Shown here one piece after another: positions 1 to 61,988 of a stretch of 61,988 nt of DNA. A program made the translations under genes and the position numbers. The DNA comes from Syncephalis plumigaleata (Eukaryota; Zoopagomycota; Zoopagomycetes; Zoopagales; Piptocephalidaceae). The stretch spans positions 1-61,988 of the forward strand of contig JAIXMF010000039.1 in NCBI GenBank assembly GCA_025201365.1, written 5' to 3'. The notes under the pieces are model-generated. The model was not told the DNA's origin. It did no database searches and saw only the letters and a list, made by a program, of their open reading frames with translations. The stretch's first letter is position 1. Each line of letters begins with the position of its first letter.

Positions 1-2730
1 GTGCGAGAGCGAGTGAGTGAGTGAGTGGAAAGAAAAATACCGGCACGTAAGGAATAGAAAGGTGAATTACCATTCAGGTGATCGTGCTAACACATGCCTT
101 TGTCGGCAAATAATAGGAGTAGTAATATACCGCTCGTTCCTATCAAAAAGTTACTTGACAACTACGTAATAGTAGTAAAATAACAGGAAGAAAACAGATA
201 AAGCAACTCGTGTTCAGAAAGGAAAAGAAGAGTCTATATGATCCGATATCAAAATACGATCACAAAAAAAGAAACCCAACCCAACCCAGCCCCCAAAAAT
301 AGCTCAATGTCAAGGATACCCGTTGCCAATGGAAAAAGAAAACGCTTAGCAAAAGTGACTAACTGTACACCCTGCGTATTTCCAAGTCAAGTACACATGT
401 GTACACACCTACTCAATGGCTATGTTATGGTTATGATGCGAAGAAAGAGGAAAAGACGACAGAGAGAGAGAGGGAGAGAATGAGAGGACGAGAATGAGTG
501 TTATAGAAAAGGGATGAATAGATTGTGCACGAACAATCAATTAGTGCTAATAGCAATAGCGATACTATCTAATACTACAATTACTATAGAGTCACTAATA
601 ATGAAAAGATGAATAAATGAACATCACCTAATTAGGTAGAAAGGAAAAGGAATACCACAAGTAGATGATAAAAGAAAGAGAGAGATGATAAGAAGTAAAT
701 TAACAGGGAATCCACGTTTAATTGCCTTATGGATGATGAATTGCCGAGAATAAAGCACGCGTTTGCGATGGGATGTGAAGATCAAAGTAAGAAGTAAACG
801 AGTAGAACAGGTAGCATGCGTAAATATAGAGAGCCATACACACATACGCGCATATATACACATAGACACCATGTGATAAAGCACCACCATCAACTACTTC
901 AACTTCACCACCACTATTATTCTTGTTATTATTCCTTCATGTCATGTGTGCCGTGCAAGCATTCACGCACCATTATGGATAGAATAAAAGTGTTAGTGTG
1001 AATTAGCTAGGCTACAATAGGTGTGTGTGTGTGTGTACGTGTGCGTGTATGGATCGGCCCGTTTCGCACTTTTTCATCTGAAGTCAGCGTTGTTGTGCGC
1101 TTGTTTCAAGGCGGCTAGGCAAGACACACTTATCTCGCTGACTGCCCGTGCATATCACTCAACCAGCTAAATAATAGCGGATATAACTAATGAATGTATG
1201 CGCTATAACTGCTAAACAAAAATGGCGTACAAGTACACTCGCAATACTGATCATGTACCCACCAGATGAACTAGTGATAAAGTAAATGTAGCAAGCTATA
1301 ATCAACGTGAATATACGCAGACATTTACAGTCACAGCGATATGGTAGGAACAAAGTAGGAAAAGAAGTAGACTCTAATGGGATAGATCCACTAGCATACA
1401 TCCGTTTACATGTCAATATCGATAAATACTTACCTCGATGGTTGTTATCTAGTGGTAGTAGTAATAGTAATAAAACAGAGCAGTAGTTGCTTGATAGTTA
1501 TGTATTGGTAGTGGTAATGGTGGTGGTAGTAGTAGTAAGGAGAGAATCCAAAGGTATGTTATGGTGACTATATGTATTATCGTAGAATGAGCGGATGAAC
1601 AGAGAAAGGAGTAAACACATACACATGCACACGTGTGTTATGTGCAAGCGTACCAATAATTGAAATAACCAACAAGTATTAATCGTGTTATTACGATGGA
1701 TTAATAGGGAGGGAGAGAGAGAAGTTAAGAAAAAACACGCCAAAAAGGAGACAAATTAAAGAGTAAGAGAGAGAGAGAATGATAGGGAAGAAAAGGAGAG
1801 TAATATGCGGGATAATCAGGCAATCTCCATCCGATGAATATATAGAATTTAGAGAGAGAGAAAGAGAGAAATAAAGATAAAAACGTGGTAATAAGGCGGT
1901 AGAGTGACTATACTACTACTCACATTGATACAACGGTAGCGTATGGTATATACATAGCATACACGCATTCATACCATTCATACGCAAGGGTAACTTGAAC
2001 CTATTCATTATGCCAATGATGGTAATGTCACGCGGTATGTGTGTGTGTGTGTGTGTGTACTGGTGAACATGACTGCCATGTGGATAAAGGTATTGATGAA
2101 ACAGGGCGCCAATAAAATGATGCTCGATAGATGACGGCACCATTTACCACGAATAGAAAAAAAAGAGAGAGAGAGAGAGAGATGGCATGGCAAGTCGCAA
2201 TGTGTGCGTGTGCGTATGTGTGCATGTGTGTATGTGTACATGTCTGTGCCATGAAGTATCGCTTGCTTGTGGAATTCCGGTTTAACTCGGCCTTAAGCCA
2301 TTGCTGTTTATGCTGGAGAGCACCACATAGCAAACTTGTAGGCCAAGGTTACTACTAACATGCTACTCGGCACCATATCAGCATTTGTAGTAAACAGCGT
2401 ATAATTAACTGGATTTACACTGATAAATGCTCTATGCTTTCATACAGATGATATACACATCTGTCATGGAGATAAAGGAATTAACTTTGTAGTGTTATAG
2501 TAGCATTGATTGTAATCTGTAAATAATAGCATTGTCAGTGAATTCATAAAGCCAAGCAAAGTGCAATGAACGAGTCAGGTTGTGTAACCATTCTCTACCG
2601 CTAGCTGGATAAACGATAACACGCTGTAGTTGTAGCATGCTTAGTTTGAGTAACATCATTATCATTTACTATAAGATATATAGATTTAGCAATAAAAAAT
2701 CTATTCAATTATAATTAATGGTGCAAACTT
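1..2730. other. Gene-free AT-rich stretch with microsatellites
   Basis: No open frame here looks like a protein. The stretch holds simple repeats: GA-rich runs near 460-480, 1850-1870 and 2163-2182, and GT runs near 1021-1035 and 2038-2058. The short frames on both strands are translations of these repeats. No RNA gene was recognised. Confidence 0.6.
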
Positions 2731-3370
2731 ATTTATTAATAAAAATAAAGGGCTAACTGTGTTAATTGATTGGGAAAGCCCTGTATACTAACTTGAGTAT
2801 TAATCTCGAGTACATTCACGTAGTAGAAAGGCGGCAATATCAACGTCACTCCAATAGTTAAAGTGGACCTGTAATCCGGTCAAGTACTCATTCTCGAGTA
2901 AACCCTCCTGTAGACACCAGTCTACCCGTCCGGAATAATTCAGCTGTTCCAATAACACTCGTGGATCAGCCGACATACTCGGTCTAGAGTTTTGTGTCTG
3001 TTCAGCACTACTCGTCGTTGTAGTGTCCGCGTTATCCGCCTGCTCCTTGGCCTCCTTGGTTAGTGATTTAAAGATACTTACGGCACGTATACTCGTACGC
3101 ATCGAATCGATCAATCGGTTCACTCGATAGTGCACCTTGCTCGCTCGTTATCGATGTCGTTGTCGTTGTCGATACTCGTGTGAGCTTGTCTCGCTTGATT
3201 TTGTCGTTCTTTTGTGTTAAACGCTCCACTTCATCCCAGCCACGTACCAATTTAATACCACCTAGATTCTCTCCCTTTGTGAATTTAGCAACGATACTTT
3301 CCGCAAAATTGCCACTAAGCAGCCATGCACCTCGTGCAGACGTAAATATAACTGATTGTGTTATATAAGG
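2731..3370 (-). pseudogene. Truncated, rearranged copy of the DDHD phospholipase A1 gene
   Basis: Two blocks are nearly identical to the intact phospholipase gene at 9044-12085. About 2750-3103 matches about 8990-9348 (C-terminal DDHD end and 3' flank). About 3103-3370 matches about 10905-11168 (an upstream exon). The 1.55 kb between them in the intact gene, including the GHSLGS catalytic block, is missing. The junction near 3103 falls in a short shared CATCG-like sequence and puts the two blocks in different frames, so no lipase can be made. A 6-bp gain lies near 3153. Homology on the high-coordinate side stops abruptly at about 3370. This is a recent partial duplication with an internal deletion. 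Confidence 0.85.
2735..2790 (+). repeat. Palindrome-ended dispersed repeat, copy 1
   Basis: A TTATTAATAAAA lead is followed by GGGCTAACTGTGTTAATTG and ends AAAGCCCTGTAT. The ends GGGCT and AGCCC are inverted repeats that could close a small hairpin. It lies directly 3' of the phospholipase pseudogene. Related copies are at about 8985-9033, 16100-16150, 42715-42760 and, on the minus strand, 41521-41580. Confidence 0.6.
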
Positions 3371-3685
3371 ACTGGGACATTCCTCCAATCAATCCGTTGT
3401 TTGTGATCAGCATCGCTTCCTTTTTACCAGTTAGATCGGTGCTTTCACCGACATGGTATTCATGTTTACCTTTACTGCACTTTAGGTCTAAATACGCAAT
3501 ATATTCCAAATACTGACAGGTATTTACCCATTTACCGTTATCCCGCTGGCTATACTCAAAATTAACGCCAATGACAGACGCAAAGGTACACTCCAACATA
3601 GTATCACAAGCACGCCTCTTACTCTCTTCGAACCTGACCTTAATAGTATTTGGATCTTTCAATAGAACTGAAGCAGGTAAGAGAA
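3371..3685 (-). other. Unidentified exon-like fragment fused to the phospholipase pseudogene
   Basis: On the minus strand an acceptor-like CCTGCTTCAG at about 3676-3685 is followed by an open frame of about 100 codons. It contains LLKDPNTIKVRFEESKRRAC and, further on, RDNGKWVNTCQYLEYIAYLD. It runs into the phospholipase-derived block at 3370 in a different frame. The composition looks protein-like rather than repeat-like, but I do not recognise the family. It has no plausible upstream exon and no 3' end of its own. It may be an exon of another gene left here by rearrangement. Confidence 0.35.
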
Positions 3686-8749: not shown

Positions 8750-8980
8750 GGAAGAGGAAATAATGTAGATAATGAAGTAAAGGGAAAGGGGAAAGAGAAG
8801 CAAAGATGAAACGAATACTTGGAAGTGGATTGGTAGACCATTAATCAAGTGTTAACAAATAGTTAAGAAGAAATTGCTAATGGTAGTATTAGTAGAAGCA
8901 AATAAATATATTAACACCCGTTACAAGATTTACGCATTTATTAATAAATAATCTATTTAATAAAGTGTTAACAAGTTTAT
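8750..8980 (-). repeat. Left arm of an inverted repeat flanking the phospholipase gene
   Basis: The reverse complement of this interval aligns with 12180-12420. Shared phrases in order are TTGTTAACAC, TAGATT, TTTATTAATAAATG and TTTGTAA, then a TGTTAATA phrase. By eye identity is roughly 70-75% over about 100 bp and weaker beyond. The phospholipase gene lies between the arms. Confidence 0.55.
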
Positions 8981-8984
8981 TGAT

Positions 8985-9033
8985 AAAAATAAAAGACTAA
9001 CTATGTTAATTGATTGGGAAAGCCCTGTATACT
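8985..9033 (+). repeat. Palindrome-ended dispersed repeat, copy 2
   Basis: Almost the same as copy 1 (AAGACTAACTATGTTAATTG, ending AAAGCCCTGTAT). It sits just beyond the stop codon of the intact phospholipase gene, so it was part of the duplicated segment. Confidence 0.6.
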
Positions 9034-9043
9034 AATGTTGGTA

Positions 9044-12000
9044 TTAATCTCGAGTACATTCACGTAGTAGAAAGGCGGCAATATCAACGTCACTCCAATA
9101 GTTAAAGTGAACCTGTAGTCCGGTCAAGTACTCATTCTCGAGTAAACCCTCCTGTAGACACCAGTCTACCCGTCCGGAATAATTCAGCTGTTCCAATAAC
9201 ACTCGTGGATCAGCCGACATACTCGGTCTAGAGTTTTGTGTCTGTTCAGCACTACTCGTCGTTGTAGTGTCCGCATTATCCGCCTGCTCCTTGGCCTCCT
9301 TGGTTAGTGATTTAAAGATACTTACGGCACGTATACTCGTACGCATCGTGGCAAACATCGTACTGGCCCGGCCTGCAATGCCCGACCCCACTTCTTGCAT
9401 ACCAAGATGCAGTCCGCGTAATCCTCCCTTCGTGTATGGAACTGGTTTAGGGACGGTTGCGGCATGACTTGGATCTATCAGTGGTTCCATACGATAAGCG
9501 ATCGGATCGGCTCGATGATAGACGTTGTAGAGATTCTCGACCAATGGTTGAGCCAGTTGCATATGCGGTAATCCATCGGGACCAAGTCGCGTATTGAAGC
9601 CTGTTCCTTCACGAGCACTATTGCCATATGCCTCGTACGCATAATGCATACAACCATTGGGGCCACGCGGTCGTAGCGCGCATCCCTTCAAGAGCAGAAA
9701 TAAACCGATAGGCGAGCCAAGTGCAAATAGATTAGTCACGGGAAACTTGAGTTGCGGCAGAGCTGTCCTCGAGGATTTAGCGGTAGCCACCGAGTCAGCA
9801 ATCGAGCTCTTCTTATTGTGCACGGATTTACCACGTTGACTCGCGTGTCCCCTCAATGACATCCAGGCTTCGGCGCGTGATCGTTGCGCGCACAAAATGT
9901 CGAATGATAACACCGAACCTAGCGAGTGCCCAAGTATCGAGATCCGCCCACCGTTAAGTAGGAAATTAGGATTACGCCGTAAGAATAATCGATAGATACG
10001 ATTCAGCTCTTCAATAAGTGCGTCATACATTTGACGTCGATATTTAGGTGTCATGTAGAGCAGGACTAGACGAGGAATAACACGTTAATACCGACATTAA
10101 TTACTAATTATTACATGAATGCTTACCATCAAGTAGGACATCCGATACGAGTGTTCTAATCGCCGGTATACCACTCAGAGTAATACTCGATAGACTGGGT
10201 AGTGAGGCATAGCCACGATTCTGAGCTGCCAATAAACGACGTTGTGATCTACGCTTCTTACGTCTTTCCTCTTCTGTACATTTACCGTGAGCTACACTGC
10301 CGCCAAATAGATCACCATCGCTACTTTCATTGTCATCGTCATTGTTGTTGCTCGTTTCTTCTTCATTTACATTCTCTGTTAATGGTTCATCTTCGCTGTC
10401 TTCTTCTTCTTCTTCTTCACTTGTATCATTGTTAATCCCACCAAACATGCCATCGCCTAGTGAATGTTCACCGCCTGCACCAAATCGAATCTTGTATCGC
10501 CATTCCACAGGCAATACTTGAACACCTCGTCCAAGTATTAGATCAGGATCAGTTGGCGCTTTCTTCTGATTGCTTGTACCATTGTAAGAAGCAGCTGTTG
10601 TGGTAGGATCCTTCATCACTTGTCGCAATACATTGCAATCATTAACAATGCTAACTAAATCGGTCTTTTCTCCTAACTTTTGACCAATACTACAATGTCA
10701 TGTTAATAAAGTATGGCTTTTTACATTATCATCAGCAGCATAATATTAATAATAATACTTACCCATGTACTACGAGAATTAAATGCTCAATCTTCCGATC
10801 CCGTTTCGCTGAAGATGTCTTACTCGATCTACTACCACCGCCACCACTACTATCGATGGTAGCGCTATCATCCATAATATCCATGGAGGACAGAGAATAG
10901 TCATCGAGTCGATCAATCGGTTCACTTGGTGGCGCACCATGCTCGCTCGTTATCGATGTCGTTGTCGATGCTCGTGTGAGCTTGTCTCGCTTGATTTTGT
11001 CGTTCTTTTGTGTTAAACGCTCCACTTCATCCCAGCCACGTACCAGTTTGATTCCGCCTAGATTCTCTCCCTTTGTGAATTTAGCAACGATGCTTTCGGC
11101 AAAATTGCCACTAAGCAGCCATGCGCCTCGTGCAGACGTAAATATAACTGATTGTGTTATATAAGGACCTAACAAGGGCCATTTAGGAACGGATGTTGCA
11201 TTGCCATTTGCTCCTATGGTGACGTGTCCCGCTGCGACATGAGCATTACCACCCGACGGTGGTGCAGTCGATGATGTTACCATAGAAGTGGGTGGACTAG
11301 TCGACAAACTACCCTGAATCGGTGCCGTAGTAGCCCTTCGCATGGCAGACGAAGTGGTAGAATCCATATCTTGTAGCCATGGTCGATGTTTCCTATCGAT
11401 CAGTTAATTACTGCTACGATTACACATTACTCCATTTCATCCCGTTCACTTACAAGTAACCATCTTCAAGCTGACGAGTTAGATTCTCCTCACATGGTTC
11501 GTATTTATTACCGACAAGTTGGAACCACAACGCTCTACGCACCTCATAGGCATTGCCTCGCCAGTACACCGGTCGTAGTAGACGTGCTCGAATATCCACC
11601 TCGAACAGCTGATCCTCCTGCACTGCCACCAATGGTGATCGATCCTCGCTTCGTGCATCAGCTCGTGCAGCCGTGGACTGTTGATAGGCCGCTTCCAGTT
11701 CATGTGAATCCTCATTAGAGAACGGCTCCCAATTGGTGGGGCGTGGTTGTTTGTCCGCCACCGGAGATGGAGCGGCAGCTGAAGCGGCGGCTGCTGCTGC
11801 TGCTTGTGCACTAGACTCTGTAACATTTGCTGCCACTGCTGCCGCGGCTGCTGCTGCTGCTGTCGCTGTCGTGGTTGAAGGTGAGAACAAGCTAGTGGTT
11901 GAAGGTGGCAATGACGAGGGTAATGACTCTGTTGAGTTTGTCGTAGTCGCTTTTGTAGTGGCACCGGTGGCTTTGTTCTGTGGCACGCTATGTGCCTGTC

Positions 12001-13677: not shown

Positions 13678-14073
13678 CTATGTTTGATAGAAGGATTGAA
13701 GAGAGGATTGTACAATTGCCGTACGGCGTTTGGCGTATATGATGTCTTTAAGTATGGATTGCCATATATAAAAGATGTTTGTATGGTTAGTTGGCTTATC
13801 GTCATATATACTCGCCATTCGTGTACGGTGGATTTCCCAGAGTGCGCTCACGACTGCAATATGGTTAGTGATACCAGCTTTGAATGGCTGTGGGTTGTAT
13901 CGTAGAGTGACGACAGCTTTCCAGTTGAAGTCGGGAGATGGAGTGGATGTAGGAAGATGGCTATACTGCTCCTGAAGTCCTTAACAATCGGGCATGACCA
14001 GAAGGAATGCTCTAGCGTATCGATTGGATGTTGGCAGGTGATAGTATTAGTGATATTCCAATGGACTAATTCA
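13678..14073 (-). pseudogene. Relic of a non-LTR retrotransposon ORF2 C-terminus
   Basis: On the minus strand, translation from about 14073 gives a Cys/His segment (TCQHPIDTLEHSFWSCP) typical of the C-terminal zinc-knuckle-like motif in LINE ORF2 proteins. After one frameshift near 13950, the frame continues DFNWKAVVTLRYNP and VVSALWEIHRTRMASIYDD to a stop at 13678. The layout matches the C-terminus of the intact LINE at 26748-33033 (Cys/His motif, then ALAVWQVHRAKVEHA), but the sequence is clearly different, so this is another family. No endonuclease or reverse transcriptase part remains. Confidence 0.75.
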
Positions 14074-26399: not shown

Positions 26400-26716
26400 T
26401 TTTTTTTTTTCTTGTTAGAACATATTTGGCTATATGCCGTCTTTTATTATAAATGAATAAACCAGGGTTATAATAACAAACAATTTGACAAACAGCCCAA
26501 TGCCCACGGAATGGAAATGTGTCTTGCGAGTGCAGACCACGGTTGTGTAGCAGAAAACCAACTAGCATATAGTCGGTAGGTTAATAAATGTCAACATTTC
26601 TGTTAACTAGTTAGAAATGATACCTTTTTCCCTATGACGGGATTGGCAGGAATCGAACCCAGGACCTATTCGTCCGAGAAATAGAGCGTAACCACTTGGC
26701 TACAACCCCATCCTCT
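26400..26716 (-). mobile_element. tRNA-derived SINE
   Basis: On the minus strand the element starts with a tRNA-like head (26709-26639), has about 240 bp of unrelated body and ends in an A-rich tail at about 26412-26400. It is flanked by 19-bp direct repeats. The head has a 7-bp acceptor helix (GGGGTTG/CAATCCC), an A-box-like TAGCCAAGTGG and a B-box-like GGTTCGATTCC, so it could be transcribed by RNA polymerase III. The D and T helices contain mismatches, so it is unlikely to be a working tRNA. It would depend on a LINE for mobility, and the neighbouring LINE is an obvious candidate, though I see no convincing shared 3' tail. Confidence 0.82.
26639..26709 (-). other. tRNA-like head of the SINE (anticodon-loop CGG, Pro-like)
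   Basis: Folding by eye gives a perfect acceptor stem, an anticodon stem TATTT/GAATA closing the loop CTCGGAC, and a T arm around TTCGATT with a mismatched outer pair. The D stem has only two good pairs. If read as a tRNA, the anticodon would be CGG (proline). Its place inside an element with target-site duplications and an A tail argues for a SINE head. Confidence 0.6.
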
Positions 26717-26747: not shown

Positions 26748-26878
26748 TTTTTTTTTTTATTATAATCCTGGGCCGTAGCCTAATTTTATTTAATAAAGAA
26801 GACATGGCACAAGATCGCGTAAATATACAATACAATAGTTGTAGTGGAAGTTAGGTAGGTGCTGGACATACGTGGCTG

Positions 26879-29800
26879 TTAGGATAATGGGATCGTGTGG
26901 AACTTCAACGTTCCTGTATTCGGCAGCCCGCCAGGTTCAAAGGTGAACCATTGGCATTGAATTTTTGTCCAGGTTTTTTGGAATGTACTGACGGATTTGT
27001 GTCGTATAGCGTGACGTAAATCCGCTTCTATTTTCGATTTTATGGCTGATTGCCATCTAGCAAGGATCGTAATACTAGGTGACGTGACTTGGCGTAACGC
27101 GTGCTCCACTTTTGCTCGATGGACTTGCCATACTGCTAGTGCGTGAAAGAGGCTGACGTTTGGCACATGTGATTGCCATTTTTGTAGGCCGTTCGTAATA
27201 TCGTGTATGTTAAGCGATGTGTCTGTCGGGTGATTCGGCGCGATCGCTTTAAGGAAGAATGTTGCTAGTTGCCAGAATTCTGTTATGCGAGGGCATTCTA
27301 GAATAAAATGACGTTTCGTTTCTACGTGTTCTTGACAAACTGTACACATGTTAGAGTGACCTGGAATGATGTGCATCATTCTATCCCCCGTGAGGATCGC
27401 TGCGTGTTGAAACTTCCACATGTACGAGCTGTGCTTTGGCTCGATTGCTTTGTCGAACGTCTGGGACCATTCCATCATCGATGGGGAATCGTTCTGTATT
27501 TCTTCTTGGGTGTACCATCTTTCGGTTCTTGGTGGCGTGGTTTCCTGGTCACATTGAAACAGGCGGCCGATTTTCGGTTTATAGAGGTCCAATTTGGTGT
27601 CTGCCATCTTCAGGAATCTGAAGGGTAGGAAGTCTGGAATGATTGTAAGGAAATCTGGCCGTACCCAATTCAGTCTAGTGTCTGTGATTGAAGCGTATTC
27701 CTCCCACGTCCAGCTATCGTCGTCCGGTGTATTGTGGCCTTTCAAGTGTTTCCATGTCTCTAACGTGTAGTCGAAGAATCTTTTGGATGGACCTGCTCTA
27801 AGTTGAATTTTGGGCTTTCGACTTGTACATATGATTGAGTGATGCTTATTTGCCTCCTTCAGTTTCTCCTTTAGTAACTCTTGAGCTGTAGGTGCCCATT
27901 TCGGTTGATTCTCCGGCTCATCTAGCATTTGTGCGATCCAGACCGCAAAAATAGCTGTTGCCTGTTTACGTAGCGGTATCAAACCAACGCCTCCTGCCAG
28001 CTTTGGCTTCGTGATGATATCTTCCGCCACGAGGTTGAGTTTGTGTTTCCATATAAATCTCTTTACACGTTGCTTTACTTTCGTTATAAAACCTTTAGAG
28101 AAGGGGATGATGTGGGCGGCGAACCATAATTTTGCTAGTAGACATGAATTTGTCAGGAGGACTCGACCTAGTAGCGATAAGCCGCGATCCTGCCATCTAT
28201 CCGCGGTGACCTCTATACTGTTGAGCAACTTGGCTTCGGTTGCTTCAATTGCTATCCCTTTCCTTGTGAAGAGGATTCCGAGATATCTAGTTGATTCCCT
28301 TTCCGGTATAGGAGGATACGGTAAGACGAAATCTGGTGTGCCTAGTGGTATTAAAACTGTTTTGTCCTCGTTTAGTCGTGCCGCTGATGCTTGTTCATGT
28401 AAATGAATGGCGTGACAGAACGTTCTGACATCCTGGTGAGAGCTAATTGCCACTGCTATGTCGTCCGCAAAAGCAAGGCATTTTAAAGGGTGTACCGGTA
28501 GGTTGATTCCGATGAGTCGTTGGCGTAATGTACATAAAAAAGGTTCGAGGACAAAATTGTATATTATAGGAGAGAGAGGGTCACCTTGACGCAGCCCTTT
28601 ATGTATCGGTATCCATGAAGACAGTAGTGGGCCCATACGAGCCGCTCCATATGCTTCTGCATTCATCATTTGAATTATCTTGCGTATTCTCGGTCCTATG
28701 TTGAATGCGGCTAAGCATCTGTCTAGGTACGATCGATCTACCCTGTCGTAAGCTTTCTGCTGGTCTAATAGTAGCAGTGCTCCGGAGGCTTCTTCCGGTT
28801 TAATAATACCGTATTGAATAGCAAAGTGTAGTGTGTGAAGGTTATCGAAGATGGACCGATTTTTAATAAAACCTTTTTGCGAGTCGCCTATGCAGTGGTT
28901 AGCCGCTTTGTGCATGCGCTGTGTGATGATTCTCGTCAGGATCTTGATGTCGCAATCGGACAGGGCTATCGGGCGCCAGTTCGCTAATGATAGGAGATCA
29001 CCTTGCTTTGGCAGCAGCAGAATGTGTATTCTTTTAAACGATAACGGGAATTGACCGTGCCTTATAAATTCGTTGTATAGCTTTGTTATAATAGGTGTCA
29101 ATGTTGAGCTGAAACGTTTATAGAATTCATACGGTATGCCATCAGGTCCTGGAGCTTTGTTCCTGGGCGACTTCCGAATCGCTTCTGCCACTTCTTCTTC
29201 CGTGATTTCTGCATCTATCTCGTCTCGCATATTGTCGTTCAGCGTTTTTTCGATATTAGCTAGAAGCTCGTTTTGTGCTATCGAATTTGTATGCTCTGGC
29301 CCGAAGAGGTCTGTATAAAAATCCTGTACCACTTCGAAGATTTGCTCTGGTGTATCCACTCGTTGACCGTTGCTAGCGCGTAGTTCTCGTAACCAATCGA
29401 ATTGCTTACGTCCTTTTAGGCACTTGAAGAAGTATTTCGTCGATCGCTCACCTTCCTCTGTCCATCGAACGCGCGAATGTATACGTCTTGCTTCCGCTCG
29501 TCTGTGTGCGTTATTGGTGAGATCATTTTCTATCGTCGTAACCTGTTGTAGCCAATGATGAGTAGCCGCGCTGTCTCGTCTCCAGTCGGGAGGGTTGTTG
29601 TACAACTCCTGCAGCTTCTTACTCTTATCTTGCATGTGTTTGTTGATCTTGCGTTTGTGTTTGCCGGCGAAAGCGATGGAGTAGCCGCGTAGCGTGTTCT
29701 TGAAGAGATCCCATGCGTAAACGGAGCTAGTGAGTGTCGATTTCGGGTTGCATTCAGGGTGGTCAACTCTGGTTTTGAGGGCGAGGATTGTGCGCTCCAT

Positions 29801-30589
29801 ATTTGCTATGTATTCATCTATTTCCAATAAACTTGTATTGAATCGCCACACCGGTCGCCCTGGTAGCTTTGGCTTATTTGGACAGATGGTAGTACATAGT
29901 GGCCAGTGATCTGATCTTGGTGCCGTCAATACTCTAGGTAGACTGCACCTTCTCGCTACCGTCGATGTAGCTAGTATGTGGTCTATACGAGATCGACTGT
30001 CACCTGATGGGCTGCGCCTGGTATAGAGTTTGATGTCGGGATGATAGTATCGTACAGTGTCTATCAAACGGAATTGCGTTATCACGTTTGAATAGTGAGC
30101 CCATTCGTCTCTTGGTTGTCGTGGCGGTGGTGCTCTATCTAAGTGAGGATTCGGTGTGGCGTTGAGGTCGCCTAATACCATCATGTGAGGATGTGGGGTG
30201 ATGACATGGCGTAGTGCTGTGCAGAAATCTGGCTGTTGAGGTGGATCAGCTGGCGCGTAGACGCAATATATAACCAGGACCGGCCATGGTATATTTGGTC
30301 CAACTATTTCCGCTCTTAACACTCTGCCGTCTAGGTATGGTGTAGGTGTGGAATTAAAAGATAACGAGGAGTGTGGGTTTAAAAGAATGCCTGTATAAGG
30401 AGTCCATGCTGCTGGTCCGCCCCATTGAGTAGTCCACCAGTGGTGATCATTAGAACACGCGTTTGTTTCCTGTAAGGCGATAATGTCTATGTTTTCGTTT
30501 TTAATGTGTGTGAAAGTGATTGATCTATTATTGGAGTCACGTATACGGTTGACGTTCCATGTTGCGATATGTATATTACGTGTCGTCAT
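26879..30589 (-). CDS. LINE ORF2: endonuclease and reverse transcriptase
   Basis: Intact 1236-residue polyprotein. The N-terminal 230 residues form an apurinic/apyrimidinic-type endonuclease: ATWNVNRIRD, IIALQETN, VLGDLNATPN, SRIDHILA and SDHWPL carry the expected Asn, Glu, Asp and His. The central reverse transcriptase has KAPGPDGIPYEFYK, NWRPIALSDCDIKILTRII, LLLDQQKAYDRVD, GLRQGDPLSPIIYNF and the catalytic FADD in CLAFADDIAVAI. The C-terminus has a Cys/His motif, CTVCQEHVETKRHFILECP. The protein nicks target DNA and reverse-transcribes the element RNA in place. Its ATG shares one base with the ORF1 stop (TAATG), suggesting coupled re-initiation. Confidence 0.95.
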   Translation of the reverse strand: MTTRNIHIATWNVNRIRDSNNRSITFTHIKNENIDIIALQETNACSNDHHWWTTQWGGPAAWTPYTGILLNPHSSLSFNSTPTPYLDGRVLRAEIVGPNIPWPVLVIYCVYAPADPPQQPDFCTALRHVITPHPHMMVLGDLNATPNPHLDRAPPPRQPRDEWAHYSNVITQFRLIDTVRYYHPDIKLYTRRSPSGDSRSRIDHILATSTVARRCSLPRVLTAPRSDHWPLCTTICPNKPKLPGRPVWRFNTSLLEIDEYIANMERTILALKTRVDHPECNPKSTLTSSVYAWDLFKNTLRGYSIAFAGKHKRKINKHMQDKSKKLQELYNNPPDWRRDSAATHHWLQQVTTIENDLTNNAHRRAEARRIHSRVRWTEEGERSTKYFFKCLKGRKQFDWLRELRASNGQRVDTPEQIFEVVQDFYTDLFGPEHTNSIAQNELLANIEKTLNDNMRDEIDAEITEEEVAEAIRKSPRNKAPGPDGIPYEFYKRFSSTLTPIITKLYNEFIRHGQFPLSFKRIHILLLPKQGDLLSLANWRPIALSDCDIKILTRIITQRMHKAANHCIGDSQKGFIKNRSIFDNLHTLHFAIQYGIIKPEEASGALLLLDQQKAYDRVDRSYLDRCLAAFNIGPRIRKIIQMMNAEAYGAARMGPLLSSWIPIHKGLRQGDPLSPIIYNFVLEPFLCTLRQRLIGINLPVHPLKCLAFADDIAVAISSHQDVRTFCHAIHLHEQASAARLNEDKTVLIPLGTPDFVLPYPPIPERESTRYLGILFTRKGIAIEATEAKLLNSIEVTADRWQDRGLSLLGRVLLTNSCLLAKLWFAAHIIPFSKGFITKVKQRVKRFIWKHKLNLVAEDIITKPKLAGGVGLIPLRKQATAIFAVWIAQMLDEPENQPKWAPTAQELLKEKLKEANKHHSIICTSRKPKIQLRAGPSKRFFDYTLETWKHLKGHNTPDDDSWTWEEYASITDTRLNWVRPDFLTIIPDFLPFRFLKMADTKLDLYKPKIGRLFQCDQETTPPRTERWYTQEEIQNDSPSMMEWSQTFDKAIEPKHSSYMWKFQHAAILTGDRMMHIIPGHSNMCTVCQEHVETKRHFILECPRITEFWQLATFFLKAIAPNHPTDTSLNIHDITNGLQKWQSHVPNVSLFHALAVWQVHRAKVEHALRQVTSPSITILARWQSAIKSKIEADLRHAIRHKSVSTFQKTWTKIQCQWFTFEPGGLPNTGTLKFHTIPLS

Positions 30590-32253
30590 TATTGATTGAG
30601 TGAATGATTGCTGTCCATTGTTGGTGGACTGGTGGTGGACGTGGTGGTAGCTGTGTTCATAGATGATTCATTGTGTTGTGTTTGGGTATGTTGCGTTGCA
30701 CTGGACGGGAATTCCAGGATAGAGCTTGGATTATCCTCGTTTGCCGTAGGGCTGACCTCGTTCTCAAAGCTGTCGACCATCTCTACTATGTGTTCTGTCT
30801 GCTTTGCGGGTGTGCCTTGTTCGGCTGAGTGAATCTCCGGAGCTAGGAGTGGGGTTGACGGGACTGTGGATGGGCTCACGACGTTCATCAAAGGAGCAAC
30901 TTCCTTAATAAGTGTGGGTTGTGGGCCGGTGTTATTGGATTTGGTGTGTTTCTTCGTGATTTTTGATTGCGCTGTATATGGATGTGAGTTGCTTTGGGGA
31001 GGTGCTGGTGTCGTTTTCCGGACAGCTTTCCTCTTCCGTAGCGGGCGGCCTTGCAACTTAGCGTCCAGACTCTCTCGCAACTCGCCGATCGTCCTCCGCT
31101 TGGCCTCCTTCTTCGGTGCTGTCCTCCTGTCGACGTCCTTCATCTCGTCATCTTCGTCTTCCTCCTCTGTTAGATATTGATCCTCTGCTAGATCTTCATC
31201 CATATCACTCAGTACTTCGAATGAATTCGTAGACGGCTGAATTGTCTGCTCCTTTGGCGACGGAGGAGGAGGAGAATTTGGCCGATGTCCAACTTGAGTG
31301 AAGTGTTCCTCATCTTGTGGGCTATCTTCCTCAAGCGATTGGATGGATGCGCTGGTCGAGGGTTGTTCGAGTAATGTTGCAGGCTGTGCGTCGTCTTCAC
31401 CATTAGCAACTGATGGTGGCGCACTGTCCTCGTGTTGTTCCGCCTGTTGGTCGGTTGGGCGGTTATTATTTTGACGGAAACGTTTACGTATGTTCGTGCA
31501 ATCATCCGTTTGGTGATCCGGTTGTTTGCAGATTCGACACGCTGTACGTTTTTGTTTCCAATAGACGTTAGCTTGAGTGTTTATAACTTGTATTCTGCTG
31601 GGGAATACCTCTGGTAACGTGGATGTAGATGTAGGCAATATTATTATATCCGCTCTACGTACGAATATTCTACCTTTACCAATAGTGTGAATAGCCGTAT
31701 CTAACACGGTTCCATATTGAGAGAAGGTCTCAATCAGAGCTTTGGTAAGAGTGACTGCGTCAGTAGCTGGTAAATCTGTGGCAGTGGCTGACAGTACCTG
31801 GTCATCCGCTGCATATAATCTTTGTAATGGAATTTGTTGGTTCTTGTATGTAATACCGGTGTTTAGAAAACCCAATAATAACTCTTCCGATTTCATGGAG
31901 AAAGTTACAGTCAGTTGACGTTTGGAGGGGTCTCCGTACTCCGCTGCATCACCTACCGTATCTGCTACGTGATCTAATGCTTCATTCCATTCATTTTGAA
32001 AAGCGTTTAAGTCGCAATGTAGGGTATAGGTGTATGCGTAGTTGGCTACATGAGGAGGAGAAAAGTATTGTAAGGGCGCGCCTATTTCCGCCTCTCGCAG
32101 ATGAAACGTGCTCCATTTTCCATATACTGAACGATTTTTTTGATTTCTTTTTTGAGCTGTTGGGGGAGGCAGATCCGGTTGGCCGGCAGCGTCTCTATAT
32201 GATCGAGGCTGAGCATATATGGACTCATTGCTGTTTTGCGGAACTGCAATCAT
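30589..32253 (-). CDS. LINE ORF1: RNA-binding gag-like protein with a CCHC zinc knuckle
   Basis: Predicted 554-residue protein from the ATG at 32253; an upstream in-frame TTG at 32292 lies in the leader hairpin and is unlikely to be used. A CX2CX4HX4C zinc knuckle (CRICKQPDHQTDDC) lies at about residues 240-255, preceded by a region that could form the RRM-like fold common in L1-type ORF1 proteins. The C-terminal half is disordered: Pro/Ser/Thr-rich with an acidic Glu/Asp block and a basic RKRKAVRK segment that could act as a nuclear localisation signal. It would coat the element RNA. Family assignment rests on the knuckle and on its place upstream of ORF2. Confidence 0.9.
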   Translation of the reverse strand: MIAVPQNSNESIYAQPRSYRDAAGQPDLPPPTAQKRNQKNRSVYGKWSTFHLREAEIGAPLQYFSPPHVANYAYTYTLHCDLNAFQNEWNEALDHVADTVGDAAEYGDPSKRQLTVTFSMKSEELLLGFLNTGITYKNQQIPLQRLYAADDQVLSATATDLPATDAVTLTKALIETFSQYGTVLDTAIHTIGKGRIFVRRADIIILPTSTSTLPEVFPSRIQVINTQANVYWKQKRTACRICKQPDHQTDDCTNIRKRFRQNNNRPTDQQAEQHEDSAPPSVANGEDDAQPATLLEQPSTSASIQSLEEDSPQDEEHFTQVGHRPNSPPPPSPKEQTIQPSTNSFEVLSDMDEDLAEDQYLTEEEDEDDEMKDVDRRTAPKKEAKRRTIGELRESLDAKLQGRPLRKRKAVRKTTPAPPQSNSHPYTAQSKITKKHTKSNNTGPQPTLIKEVAPLMNVVSPSTVPSTPLLAPEIHSAEQGTPAKQTEHIVEMVDSFENEVSPTANEDNPSSILEFPSSATQHTQTQHNESSMNTATTTSTTSPPTMDSNHSLNQ

Positions 32254-32259
32254 GATTAG

Positions 32260-32295
32260 CTTTTGCGCCTTCGGCGGAACGTCGAGGCGCAAAAG
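32260..32295 (-). promoter_or_regulatory. GC-rich hairpin in the LINE leader, just before the ORF1 start
   Basis: Perfect 11-bp inverted repeat CTTTTGCGCCT (32260-32270) and AGGCGCAAAAG (32285-32295) with a 14-nt loop. Its 3' foot lies 6 nt before the ORF1 ATG in the transcript. A helix there should hinder scanning ribosomes or bind a protein. Its role is inferred. Confidence 0.7.
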
Positions 32296-33033
32296 AGAGA
32301 ATAAATGTCAAACGAGTTGACGAGCAATAACGGTAAAGAGAGAATAAATGTCAAACGAGTTGACGAGCAATAACGGTAAAGAGAGAATAAATGTCAAACG
32401 AGTTGACGAGCAATAACGGTAAAGAGAGAATAAATGTCAAACGAGTTGACGAGCAATAACGGTAAAGAGAGAATAAATGTCAAACGAGTTGACGAGCAAT
32501 AACGGTAAAGAGAGAATAAATGTCAAACGAGTTGACGAGCAATAACGGTAAAGAGAGAATAAATGTCAAACGAGTTGACGAGCAATAACGGTAAAGAGAG
32601 AATAAATGTCAAACGAGTTGACGAGCAATAACGGTAAAGAGAGAATAAATGTCAAACGAGTTGACGAGCAATAACGGTAAAGAGAGAATAAATGTCAAAC
32701 GAGTTGACGAGCAATAACGGTAAAGAGAGAATAAATGTCAAACGAGTTGACGAGCAATAACGGTAAAGAGAGAATAAATGTCAAACGAGTTGACGAGCAA
32801 TAACGGTAAAGAGAGAATAAATGTCAAACGAGTTGACGAGCAATAACGGTAAAGAGAGAATAAATGTCAAACGAGTTGACGAGCAATAACGGTAAAGAGA
32901 GAATAAATGTCAAACGAGTTGACGAGCAATAACGGTAAAGAGAGAATAAATGTCAAACGAGTTGACGAGCAATAACGGTAAAGAGAGAATAAATGTCAAA
33001 CGAGTTGACGAGCAATAACGGTAAAGAGAGAAT
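32295..33033 (-). repeat. 17 identical 43-bp tandem units forming the LINE 5' UTR
   Basis: The unit on the plus strand starts GAGAGAATAAATGTCAAACG and ends CAATAACGGTAAA. Seventeen complete copies plus 8 nt (GAGAGAAT) fill the interval, and I see no substitution between copies. The array ends exactly where the target-site duplication begins, so it travelled with the element. By analogy with the promoter monomers of mouse L1 it is probably the internal promoter, each unit carrying transcription signals. It has no spacers and is not a CRISPR array. Confidence 0.92.
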
Positions 33034-33053
33034 CGTCGCCTGGCGCCGCTTTT
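33034..33053. repeat. LINE target-site duplication, 5' side
   Basis: Exact match to 26728-26747. It continues into unique sequence AAAATTGGG, the uninterrupted original flank. The tRNA-Phe gene starts 60 bp further on. Confidence 0.85.
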
Positions 33054-33113: not shown

Positions 33114-33186
33114 GCGACTTTAGCTCAGTTGGGAGAGCGTTAGACTGAAGTTCTAAATGTCCCCCGTTCGATCCGGGGAAGTCGCA
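33114..33186 (+). tRNA. tRNA-Phe (GAA)
   Basis: 73-nt cloverleaf with an acceptor stem GCGACTT/AAGTCGC, D arm with AGCTCAGTTGGGAGAGC, anticodon stem TTAGA/TCTAA, loop CTGAAGT with anticodon GAA at 33147-33149, T arm CCCCG TTCGATC CGGGG and discriminator A. No intron. Internal A and B boxes are intact. All helices pair fully, so it should be functional. Confidence 0.97.
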
Positions 33187-52502: not shown

Positions 52503-53417
52503 TCAAACGATATGGCTTGACAGCAGTAAGTCCTCTAATAGTAATTCATGGCCACGTGTAGTCGGATGGAACATGTCCCAGAAGAAGTACTCTGTCGGAT
52601 TAGCACATCGAGTCTTTCTATCCTGGCTGAGACAAGAGGCAACGGTGTTCTTTAGGTTGTACTGGTCGCTCTTTGATATCACATTGACCATGTAGTTTTT
52701 AAAGTCAAAGTAGTACAGCTTAATGTCCGAATGTTGTTTGCGATACTCTGCAAGTCGCGTCTTTAGTAGTTTATTGTGTGCTGTGCTAGTCTTCTCGACG
52801 GCCGTCTGCACCGGCTTAGGCTGCGATAGGAAGTATGGCGTCAGTTCCATGGCGGCAACACCGAATACTAGGACATTACGTGCACCTAGTTTGTACAGGC
52901 TATCGACGGAATCGACCACGTTACCGACACATTCGCTAATGAACGTGGTATTAGTGTCCATTTTAGGTCCTGCCGTGTAGATGTAATCGTTGTTCGCGGG
53001 CTCGATAATATGCAAGGCATGCTTGATCTTCTTTTCCTTAGACGTCTGCTTGCCTGCGTACAGCTTTGTCACTTGGTCGTGAATACTTGGCACGGGCACA
53101 TTAGCATCGGAGGACACGCTTGGAACTAGACGATCATCGGTAGTGGCACCGCCATACGCGTAGTCCTCTACCGATGGATGGAATTTGCTTTGCAATTGGT
53201 CAATCCATATTGGACCGTTGCTGTAGCGTCCTTGATAGAAGAGATCGGGATCAGGATATGCTCCCTTGGTCAGTCGGAAAGCATTGCCATTGTCGGACAC
53301 GCTGTTGCCGAAGACAATGACATTATTGTAGGTATTTACATTGAGTGCTCCGGCGATAGCTGTCGCCTTTATGGAAGCAAGTAGAACAGAGGCAATAGTA
53401 AACGACGAGGAGTACAT
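52503..53417 (-). CDS. Secreted GDSL/SGNH hydrolase-like protein with altered motifs (GDSL gene 1)
   Basis: Single-exon frame of 304 residues with a signal peptide (about 1-22). It has the SGNH layout: block I VIVFGNSVSDNGN at about 33-45, block II YSNGPIWIDQL and YAYGGATTDD, block III IIEPANNDYIY at about 138-148, and block V DMFHPTTRGH near the end, keeping Ser39, the Asp-His pair and the block III Asn. Block I has Asn38 where GDSL has Asp, and block III has PANND instead of GGND. Family members hydrolyse esters or lipids outside the cell. Unlike the other three copies here it has no intron. It may be active with changed specificity, or a non-enzymatic relative. Confidence 0.87.
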   Translation of the reverse strand: MYSSSFTIASVLLASIKATAIAGALNVNTYNNVIVFGNSVSDNGNAFRLTKGAYPDPDLFYQGRYSNGPIWIDQLQSKFHPSVEDYAYGGATTDDRLVPSVSSDANVPVPSIHDQVTKLYAGKQTSKEKKIKHALHIIEPANNDYIYTAGPKMDTNTTFISECVGNVVDSVDSLYKLGARNVLVFGVAAMELTPYFLSQPKPVQTAVEKTSTAHNKLLKTRLAEYRKQHSDIKLYYFDFKNYMVNVISKSDQYNLKNTVASCLSQDRKTRCANPTEYFFWDMFHPTTRGHELLLEDLLLSSHIV

Positions 53418-54394: not shown

Positions 54395-55677
54395 ATGGCT
54401 TTCAAAGTAAAGGCCCCGTGGCCTGTTTGCTGGCCACATCGTAGAGCGATATTGCTATTGAGCGCGAGACTATTCCTAGTATTGCTGCTATTGTCGCAGG
54501 TATGGGCGAAGGCGACAGCCTACCAGATAGCCATGCAAACCGATCTCACGACAGAGCGAGCGATTATCTCGCGTCTAATGATCGATGGCGCCACGGATGG
54601 CACGATCGTTTGGCCGATTCTCTCGCCAACCACTTATTTCAATACAACGCCCATTACTCACGCGAAAAGCGAAATACTCGATGGTAACGGGTGGTTCCCC
54701 AAACGCATGGTAGTATTCGGTGATAGTATGAGTGATAATGGCAATTTCTTTCGGCGTAGCCTTAACTTCTATCCGCCCAACTACTGCTACTTCTCGGGAC
54801 GCTTTAGTAACGGACCAGTTTGGGTGGATCGACTGGCCGAGCTTATCGACGGTCTAGAGGTGGAGAACTACGCGTTTGGCGGTGCCGTGACCAGCGAGGG
54901 TTTATTACCCACGAAAATACCATTAGCCAAGGACATTATTCCTAGTGTTACCGATCAAGTGAATCAGGTAAGATGCTGCCATACAATCGTTATTCTTACT
55001 ACGATCGTTATGATACATTGCTTAACAGAATGCTACCATTTCATTAGCTCTATCTTAGTGGTATACCGGAGATAAGCGTGGACAATGTTACGAAAGCTGA
55101 AGTACACGCGGATAACACGTTATACGTGATTTGGGCCGGTGGCAATGACTATTTCGAATTGATTAAGCGGGACGACGTCGAGGAACGTATCGCGGAACAT
55201 CCTCGTCTAGTGATAGATACGCTGCTAAAAGCGGTGGACGCATTGTACGCACGAGCTGGGGCTCGTCGTTTCCTTCTGATCAATCTGCCGGCAATGGATT
55301 TTATGCCGCGATTCCTAAGTGACGACATGAAAACCAGTGCCAATGAACTGCACCAGCTGGTGAATAGTCATAACCAGCTACTAAGCGAGAGTATCGGACT
55401 AGCATCGGATCGCTGGCCGAAATCCAATGTCCAAATGCTTGACGCGCACTCGATGATGACGCGTGTACGAGCATCGCCCAAGAAGTACGGGTTCACCGAT
55501 GTGTCCACCGCTTGCATGAAACCGCGAGCTTGGGGCTTCCTAGGCGGTAGGGTGTGCCGTGACCCGCATCAGCATTTCTTCTGGGATGACGTGCATCCAG
55601 GTTGGAGGGCGCACATGCTATGCGCCGAGACCATTTATAAACTATTTCGCGATAAGCCCGAGCTATTCCAGCTCTAA
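54395..55677 (+). CDS. Secreted GDSL/SGNH hydrolase (GDSL gene 2)
   Basis: Predicted 400-residue protein from exons 54395-54967 and 55048-55677. A hydrophobic N-terminal segment (about 18-38) acts as signal peptide or anchor, followed by an extra stretch of about 65 residues not seen in the other copies. Catalytic blocks are complete: VVFGDSMSDNGN with Ser111, RFSNGPVWVDRL, YAFGGAVTSEG, IWAGGNDYF and DDVHPGWRAH. It is the only one of the four paralogues with all canonical residues. Predicted esterase/lipase of the plant- and fungus-type GDSL group; substrate unknown. The single intron lies at the same place (after a QVNQ or QVED-like motif) as in gene 3, supporting common descent. Confidence 0.9.
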
Positions 55678-60009: not shown

Positions 60010-61000
60010 ATGTACAAGTTAATACCGACGATTCTTCTTAGTGTAGTGGCCTGCTCATCATTAGTATTCGCCCAGGGACATCTACCACCGGTGAAGCAGA
60101 TTGTATCCTATGGCGACAGTCTAACAGATACGGGCAACATCTACGCGCTATCCGACAAGATCTTCCCGGATGGTCGTTTCTACTATCCCGGTCGATTCAG
60201 CAATGGTCCTGTATGGGTGGAATGGCTACAACAGTACACCAACTCTACCTTGACCAACTGGGCGTTTTCCGGTGCCTCGACCGATAGCGACTTTATCCAA
60301 GGTGTTACGGGTGCTTGGCCACACACTGTCAAGGCGCCGGGTTTCAAGCAACAAGTCGAAGATGTAAGCAGTCATAAGTGTATTCGCTATCTAATTAGTA
60401 TTAATGACATTGATGATTTATTATTTGTTCTAGTATTACATTCCTAATATTAGCAAGACGCAAGTGGCCCCGCAAAAGAATACACTGCACGCCATTTGGT
60501 TCGGTGGTGTCGATTACATGCGTGCGACCGAGTTACGCTTCTCGGTCGACGATGAATTCGTGCAGCATGTCGTAAGGAATCTCGTTAATACGATGCAAAC
60601 CCTTCACGATCGAGTGGGCGCTACACGTTTCCTACTATTGAACGTGCCATCCTACTCGGCCTCACCGGTAGCCAAGATGTTGCCATCATTCTTGTCACGT
60701 TCGCTTGAGAAACGTCTTCCACATCACGATGCCGTACTACGCGAGGCGCTCATGCATTTCGAGGAGAAGAATCCCGACGCTCACGCCACACTACTCGATT
60801 ATCGTCAATTCGAGGCGAACATCCAGAATCATCCGTCCACCTACAACATCACTAATTCCGACTCGGGCTGTCTGAGTCTGCTCACCTGGCGTAAATGTCC
60901 CAACGAGGATAACTATTACTATTACGATAGTACGCATCCCTCGACTGCCGTGCATCGTTTGCTAGCTCGTAGCATCTTTGACTGGTTGAACTCGCCATAA
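60010..61000 (+). CDS. Secreted GDSL/SGNH hydrolase-like protein with altered block III (GDSL gene 3)
   Basis: Predicted 306-residue protein from exons 60010-60363 and 60434-61000. The ATG at 60010 gives a clean signal peptide (LIPTILLSVVACSSLVFAQ); the in-frame TTG at 59977 was rejected. Block I is SYGDSLTDTGN with Ser37, block II RFSNGPVWVEWLQ and WAFSGASTDSD, block V DSTHPSTAVHRL with Asp and His. Block III reads WFGGVDYM, so the Asn that normally helps form the oxyanion hole is Val144. Activity may be reduced or changed. Closest in the window to GDSL gene 4 (shared TLTNWA, EWLQ and FKQQ/VKQQ phrases). Confidence 0.9.
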
Positions 61001-61407
61001 ACGCAGGATATACATGTTCTATCGACACGACCAGAGCAGCAGTGAGTATAGACTTGAATCGCGCGCATTGCAACAATATCATGTTGTGCACCGTGTTCTC
61101 TTTTTCTTTTCTTTCTCTCCTACTATGTCGGGTCTAGGAATAAATTATACACACACATTCATTCATTCACACGTATATTAATGACATCAGTTGTACCCAA
61201 TGTTTCAAATTGAATGAACGCAAGCAAATAAAAACCGTATTCTGCACCGTGCACTAACTGCCACGATAAGAATCTATTCATCCACCTGCTCTATTGCTGT
61301 TGTATTGTTTCCTTCGCTACCACCATCATCACCAATATTATCTAGTGTATTTATCGTCGTTGTTGTTGTTGTTTATTTGCTACACTGTTGATAGGCAATA
61401 TAACAAC
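61001..61407. other. Intergenic region between GDSL genes 3 and 4
   Basis: 407 bp between tandem paralogues. Contains a pyrimidine-rich stretch (61088-61120) and trinucleotide GTT repeats (61358-61378). No gene seen. Confidence 0.5.
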
Positions 61408-61988
61408 ATGAAATCATTCTATACTTACTTGTCACTTGTACTTGTGACGACACCGGTTACCCGGATATCGGCTGTACCTGTGGCTGGACCCCTTCCCATT
61501 ACACACTTTGTAGCATTTGGCGACTCGTTAACCGACAATGGTAATGCGTTCGCCCTCTCGAATCAGACATGGCCCAGTACCGAGTTGTATTTCAATGGTC
61601 GTTTCACCAATGGTCTAACTTGGATTGAATGGCTGCAACGTATGTACAACGCCACACTAACCAATTGGGCGTATGGTGGTGCCACCACTGACAGTCAGTT
61701 TATACCGGGCACCACAGGGTTGTCACCTTCTCAACCGGCGGAATTGTATTTGGTACCTGGCGTAAAACAACAAATTACCGAGGTAAGCGTCTACCATTGA
61801 CAGTGTTTTGTTGAATATGAATCGTAATTGACACACACGCACATTATTATTATTATTATTTAGCACTATTTAAAACAACAACAGCAAAACAATAATAATG
61901 ATAAGTAGTAGTAGTAGTAGTAGTGACATGGAGCACACTCTATTCGTGTTATGGGCAGGCAAGCAGGATTACGTTAATGCGATGCACC
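61408..61988 (+). pseudogene. GDSL/SGNH hydrolase paralogue, cut by window end and probably frameshifted (GDSL gene 4)
   Basis: Exon 1 (61408-61782) encodes a signal peptide, FVAFGDSLTDNGN, RFTNGLTWIEWLQ, WAYGGATTDSQ and VKQQITE, and ends with a proper GTAAGC donor. The next block, after the acceptor at about 61863, starts HYLKQQQ in the expected frame but runs into stops in a TAG repeat (about 61906-61923). The next recognisable piece (HTLFVLWAGKQDYVNAM) is in another frame. I found no intron that restores it. Block III reads AGKQD in place of GGND. It could be a recent pseudogene, a length variant of the microsatellite or a read error. The 3' part lies outside the window. Confidence 0.65.

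Follow-up and report, generated by a model that had tools for sequence, protein, structure and literature searches.

What allows a retrotransposon to hold at its 5' end a long tandem array of identical monomers, with a different number of monomers from copy to copy? This question is raised by a LINE in the window, the whole stretch of 61,988 nucleotides from Syncephalis plumigaleata analysed here, where the first-pass annotation had described a young element whose 5' end consists of 17 identical promoter-like monomers of 43 bp. The element and its surroundings comprise the following features:

26748..33033, minus strand: full-length copy (C317) of a family-A LINE, 6,286 bp with two ORFs, delimited by ORFs, poly(A), and target-site duplication (TSD)
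32292..33033, minus strand: 5' array of the 43-bp monomer ATTCTCTCTTTACCGTTATTGCTCGTCAACTCGTTTGACATTT (element sense) repeated exactly 17.26 times; the monomer is also present in four other copies
32260..32295, minus strand: hairpin between array and ORF1 with the tip CGACGTTCCGCCG, its outer arm overlapping the last four array bases (fold z -2.9 and -4.1)
30589..32253, minus strand: ORF1 (ORF call), 554 aa, with a single CCHC motif (CRICKQPDHQTDDC)
30587..30591, minus strand: TAATG, overlap of the ORF1 stop and the ORF2 start (ORF coordinates)
26879..30589, minus strand: ORF2, 1236 aa, with APE endonuclease, reverse transcriptase (FADD), and zf-RVT (Pfam)
26748..26878, minus strand: 3' UTR and poly(A) tail, the tail preceded by TATAATAAAA
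26728..26747, no strand: 3' copy of the 20-bp TSD CGTCGCCTGGCGCCGCTTTT, adjoining the poly(A) end
33034..33053, no strand: 5' copy of the 20-bp TSD CGTCGCCTGGCGCCGCTTTT, adjoining the first array base
33114..33186, plus strand: tRNA-Phe(GAA), the likely target (ARAGORN, Rfam), gene 5' end 80 bp from the element 5' end
26442..26715, minus strand: SINE1 copy with a tRNA-like head (ARAGORN 'tRNA-Pro', 26636-26710), adjoining the element 3' end

Judged by its sequence, the family-A element is an L1-type non-LTR retrotransposon. Its ORF2 matches Exo_endo_phos, RVT_1, and zf-RVT, all above the Pfam cut-off, and has its best PDB match in human LINE-1 ORF2p (E 6.6e-69, residues 5-884), the best R2 match reaching 2.8e-28; ORF1 has no Pfam match. 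The hallmarks of the L1 type, namely a poly(A), a TSD, and frequent 5' truncation, recur among the family-A copies, although the boundary of the window TSD is ambiguous in that its last four T possibly belong to the tail. Identity at period 43 is exact over 742 bp (32292-33033, zero mismatches), with a Tandem Repeats Finder score of 1484 that excludes chance, so the monomers are indeed without differences, the array starting at 32292 instead of the 32295 given at first.

The host assembly (32.6 Mb, 383 contigs) was searched with the ORF2/3' DNA, and at least 29 match rows were reduced by our own count to 25 independent family-A insertions. C1b joins two rows, C128 duplicates the C318 site, and C341a, b, and c make up one insertion, C341a being no separate one because it has the same 5' end (base 5464) and TSD as C341b+c. 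The near-full-length bodies are 99.4-100% identical to the window copy, whose two ORFs are open, and the description of the LINE as young is supported. Four copies (C317, C351, C290, and C1a) run over the full length without a break in the stretches read. A fifth, C1b, is interrupted by other insertions, and its array at C1:2444086 is linked to it by coordinates, by the adjoining hairpin tip, and by a TSD matching the 3' flank. The contig of C320 begins exactly at the ORF1 ATG, where the presence of an array cannot be judged, and the remaining copies are 5'-truncated, starting at element base 3631 or beyond. Family A does not appear to be telomeric, several copies being situated over 100 kb from the contig low end, such as those at 243 kb and 2.43 Mb of the 3.05 Mb of C1. 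An element with the end sequence ...GGGCTACCGCGTTG interrupts three LINE copies (C341, C320, and C1b), spanning about 6.1 kb by coordinates in C341, and the 5' flank of the C88 copy contains a long palindrome made of sequence that also adjoins the C290 copy.

The array is present in all five full-length copies with an assessable 5' end; it lies within the TSD in C317, C351, C290, and C1b, as it does in C1a, where a SINE separates it from the TSD. Since the arrays are inside TSDs at different loci, they do not represent a pre-existing minisatellite. The claim that the array is part of the transposed unit was therefore upheld, and neither of the doubts voiced with it, copies lacking the array or a minisatellite older than the insertion, was borne out by the genome copies.

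The predicted variation in monomer number was also found, with about 15, 17.3, 20, 27.5, and 48 monomers in the five copies. As assembled, C317 holds 17.26, C351 27.47, and C290 20.0, and C1b and C1a hold about 48 and about 15, in the order listed. Despite these differences, all 127 matched family-A monomers are exact (100 in the genome listing plus 27 of C351), in a search that allowed up to three mismatches and would miss monomers bearing an indel; such is the irregular first monomer of C1a, which is outside the 127. From the body divergence, about 8.5 changes would be expected in the arrays of C351, C290, and C1a, and none is seen in the matched monomers (Poisson P 2e-4). Not one difference separates C317 from C351 over 5,326 compared body bases, but their monomers number 17.26 and 27.47.

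The same behaviour is found in a sister family, family B (C92, C148, and C35), whose ORF2 is about 55% identical to that of family A. Its three full-length copies found all carry, at the same place, an array of a 25-bp monomer, GAGCTTTTATTTTCTAGTAGCTTCT, and the 66 monomers found are all in these copies (12 in C92, 8 in C148, and 46 in C35). Between C92 and C148, only 2 body bases in 5,634 are different, while the monomers number about 12 versus 8.5-9. Unequal arrays on near-identical bodies, as in this pair and in C317 and C351, indicate that array length changes at or soon after each jump. Position 8 of the monomer is T in 20/20 monomers of C92 and C148 and C in 46/46 of C35, so the arrays have been homogenised copy by copy. 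The bodies of C35 and C148 differ at 12 of 5,028 bases, and about 2.7 scattered changes would be expected in the C35 array, where none is seen (P 0.06). The base fixed throughout C35 is the strongest sign that an array descends from about one monomer, and the different array at the same place in a sister family suggests that arrays are rebuilt from roughly one unit with each jump or afterwards. A promoter motif common to the 43-bp and 25-bp monomers was sought and discarded (local score 11, P 0.167, not significant). Family C (C24:474 kb and C57) is about 32% identical, and no array was found by eye in the 641 bases upstream of C24 plus the locus start, nor is there a Tandem Repeats Finder row.

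It is very improbable that assembly or polishing produced such arrays from a shorter repeat. Repeats without differences do pose an assembly problem, the contig of C320 begins where its array should adjoin, and assembly may have affected the copy numbers; however, five family-A arrays of different lengths are bounded on both sides by non-repeat sequence, and the preservation of its own variant in 46/46 monomers of C35 argues against false smoothing.

Between the array and ORF1, a hairpin folds in both families, at -19.5 and -21.7 kcal/mol (z -4.1 and -3.7). Its tips are nearly alike, CGACGTTCCGCCG or CGTCGTACCGCCG, whereas the stems differ between families A and B. Genome-wide, the tip pattern CGNCGTNCCGCCG is matched 12 times versus 2 for the reversed control, and 8 of the 12 are the eight array-ORF1 junctions. 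The 5' UTR of these elements is made up of a homogeneous tandem array with the hairpin at its end. Outside the junctions, two tip matches are located at C35:127664 and C2:806991, and the matches of C328 and C46 have no array over the 171 and 141 bases read. The idea of further hairpin families was dropped, these last two of the four extra matches being without array.

All eight array-bearing copies of both families start within a monomer and not in unique sequence. The first-pass annotation had proposed that reverse transcription reached the very first monomer, which is only partly supported: the start phases differ among the five family-A copies, and the start of C351 coincides with a microhomology some 8-12 bases upstream of the C317 phase. 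The 43-bp monomer contains one Inr-like match, and C317 starts at the +1 A of this sole match; the starts of C1a and C1b are a few bases upstream of the C317 phase, and that of C290 is about 12-13 bases downstream. A fixed transcription start in family A was rejected, since the phases scatter and their clustering, judged by hand, is not significant. The family-B arrays start with GAGCTT in 3/3, the phase of C148 being ambiguous owing to the sequence that follows. Ahead of the array, C1b and C92 have a G that is foreign to both monomer and target and would fit the copying of a capped RNA end.

The copies themselves show TPRT hallmarks, an array belonging to the mobile unit, and homogeneity within each copy. 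We lean, slightly beyond even chances, towards a joint reading in which the 5' UTR is a hairpin-ended homogeneous array, the monomers carry the promoter, and the array is regrown by re-copying by the reverse transcriptase. A promoter in the monomers is plausible and most likely, to judge from the monomer sequence and the copy starts. From the 8/8 array-bearing copies that begin inside a monomer, we infer that transcription may start there as well. A start inside the array would lose monomers in each cycle; the reverse transcriptase would reach the RNA 5' end, the cDNA would re-anneal to the same repeat and be extended by copying it again, and the array would be regrown from about one monomer. 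More tentatively, and with the odds rather against it, this could take the form of telomerase-like repeat addition, in which an RNA with about one monomer plus a short repeat of its start would let the cDNA slip back and recopy. If true, every insertion would receive a fresh homogeneous array, offsetting the 5' loss.

The main rival to regrowth, to which we give a serious though less than even chance, holds that the arrays are ordinary 5' UTR minisatellites altered after insertion by slippage, unequal exchange, or gene conversion, with the reverse transcriptase uninvolved. DNA slippage fits most of the same facts, and homogenisation per locus is an outcome of concerted evolution. Moreover, unequal crossing-over is among the two routes proposed for mouse L1 monomers (PMC6454616), and PMC12857005 ascribes the variable 5' repeats of fungal telomeric LINEs to slippage and recombination. 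Such events must, however, shift array length where the bodies differ at 0 of 5,326 or 2 of 5,634 bases, and fix a variant in 46/46 monomers where they differ at 12 of 5,028, leaving no mixed array among eight; the unrelated monomers of two families must behave alike at the same place; and a mouse array of 50 monomers is described as not homogeneous in PMC6454616. A promoter working as in mouse L1, with transcription starting in any monomer, fewer monomers inherited, and length restored by occasional crossing-over, would account for the variable copy number, the starts inside monomers, and the one Inr-like site per monomer; we give it a less than even chance, since alone it leaves unexplained the complete homogeneity with an array-wide fixed variant.

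Mouse L1 monomers are about 200 bp long. Like the elements described here, mouse L1Md has a variable number of tandem 5' monomers and a unique stretch before ORF1, as described in PMC6454616 and PMC9022269; its monomers fall into subtypes, whereas those of 43 or 25 bp are identical within each array. The recovery of lost monomers in mouse L1 is called unclear in PMC6454616, and a clean natural experiment on this recovery is offered by two sister families in which the monomers are short and unrelated, the bodies nearly identical, and the arrays homogeneous. Among fungi, the MoTeR and FoTeR LINEs also carry variable tandem repeats, in FoTeRs mainly in the 5' region (PMC12857005), but they are telomeric and hold many repeat motifs, while family A lies mostly at Pol III genes and has a single uniform monomer. 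Zorro3 from Candida is likewise a fungal L1-type LINE (L1 superfamily), differing by a very short 5' UTR, poly(A)-tract targets, and no known regional preference according to PMC7175516. No fungal LINE with tandem monomers like these, and no fungal tRNA-targeting LINE, was found in the literature searched (titles, starts of abstracts, and passages), which is no proof of absence.

The first-pass annotation missed the sister family with its different monomer and the common hairpin, and also the targeting of Pol III genes and the SINE partner. Family-A insertion prefers the upstream zones of Pol III genes: in 16/25 insertions a Pol III gene or a SINE head faces the element 5' end at 72-101 bp, 13 of them facing a tRNA or 5S gene and three more a tRNA-headed SINE, as follows:

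Facing tRNA genes: C317 Phe, C290 Thr, C199 Ser, C341b+c Thr, C172 Val, C362 Leu, C113 Thr, C92 Leu (Tyr under an intron setting), C94 Val, C380 Lys, C2b Val
Facing 5S genes: C68; C1a (distance to the SINE preceding its array)
Facing SINE heads: C351 at 74 bp, C1b at 86 bp, C1c at 77 bp

The spacer to the near TSD edge is about 55-85 bp, measured by hand. Within 110 bp, heads are found at the 5' end only in 13 insertions, at both ends in three (C317, C380, and C2b), and at the 3' end only in two, where they are SINE1 heads (C88 and C112, at 27 and 28 bp); counting tRNA and 5S heads alone, these figures are 12, 1, and 0. The SINE head on the 3' side of C317 was entered into this tally by hand. 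Heads at both ends are accounted for by reuse of one site by SINE and LINE, C88 and C112 remaining exceptions. No head was found within 300 bp of C322 and C2a, whose target sequence is common to neighbours at Pol III sites, and no Pol III head within 300 bp of either end of C24, C254, C318, and C223; C320, with its contig starting at the ORF1 ATG, offers no 5' flank to score. A permissive Rfam search of six loci (these four, C88, and C112) gained only the two SINE1 heads, besides weak miRNA-model matches on the C88 palindrome and one weak snoRNA match. In family B, there is a 5S gene facing C148 at 84 bp and a tRNA-Leu facing C92 at 90 bp; the parts of the C35 locus that were read, including about 240 bases of 5' flank, contained neither tRNA nor 5S. 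The genome has two U6 genes, and neither contig holds a family-A copy.

That the tRNA association is incidental, the sites being chosen by the endonuclease alone, is almost certainly wrong. The C317 site does read TTTT/AAAA, a canonical L1 endonuclease site, but no other resolved site reads even TTTT/AA, with the poly(A) boundary ambiguous; a strict endonuclease site, fitting C317 alone, was accordingly abandoned. Furthermore, the 13/25 insertions facing a tRNA or 5S gene at 72-101 bp have a P of about 2e-24 under a generous background ((956 first-look tRNA candidates, 63 scored, + 22 5S genes) x 150 bp), and SINE1 is placed likewise in 10/10 copies with a listed upstream gene.

This behaviour matches that of the TRE5 elements of Dictyostelium. 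TRE5-A from D. discoideum is also L1-type, with two ORFs and APE-RT-zinc finger domains; it integrates on the upstream side of tRNA and 5S genes, its 5' end turned toward the gene 5' end, and has a non-autonomous partner and a modular 5' UTR with promoter (PMC5391098 and PMC5911963); tandems at reused sites are described as well (these two and PMC5006619). The TRE5 pattern also includes dependence on the B box and a contact of ORF1 with TFIIIB. However, TRE5 inserts about 40-54 bp upstream, compared with 72-101 bp to the element start in family A; its orientation is strict, whereas two family-A copies depart from that rule; its ORF2 requires a -1 frameshift in place of the TAATG overlap; and the 5' UTR of family A is a long homogeneous array. 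Membership in TRE5 is not claimed, because distance and ORF coupling differ. The four non-LTR entries in the review table of PMC5911963, seen in part, are all dictyostelid, and family A looks like a case of LINE insertion targeted to Pol III genes outside this group.

SINE1 occupies 36 places in the genome, is about 270 bp long plus poly(A), and has a tail, TTTATAATAAAA, like the LINE tail, and is probably mobilised by this LINE group. Its head is called tRNA-Pro(CGG) by ARAGORN, with an Rfam score just under the cut-off. A tRNA or 5S gene lies within 300 bp upstream in ten copies, in a scoring that covered upstream genes from an incomplete tRNA list, and all ten are divergent at 76-107 bp; SINE1 thus appears to use the same target zone as the LINE. 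The SINE1 copy of the window (26442-26715) is probably an earlier insertion at the target of C317, likely tRNA-Phe(GAA). In C1 (238800-239500), SINE1 stands between the target duplication and the array of C1a, with the TSD GATATCGCGTTTTTTA outside both, and C1a is possibly a SINE-LINE chimera formed by template jumping; the alternative is that the SINE inserted later and made an uncommonly short duplication. Another SINE with a tRNA head, SINE2, lies inside the family-B array of C148 (7300-8500); its 3' tail (AATAAAATAAGCTACGGC) is similar to that of the LINE, and with its apparent 17-bp duplication it is read as a later insertion.

Elsewhere in the window, neighbouring GDSL-lipase-like ORFs form an apparent cluster (52503-53417, 54395-55677, and 60010-61800; Pfam on the first only), and repeated segments about 92% identical are located at 2670-3372, 8922-9348, and 10902-11168. 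Weak tblastn traces of the ORF2 C-terminus (25-31% identity) at 13681-14036 on the minus strand are perhaps an old LINE remnant.
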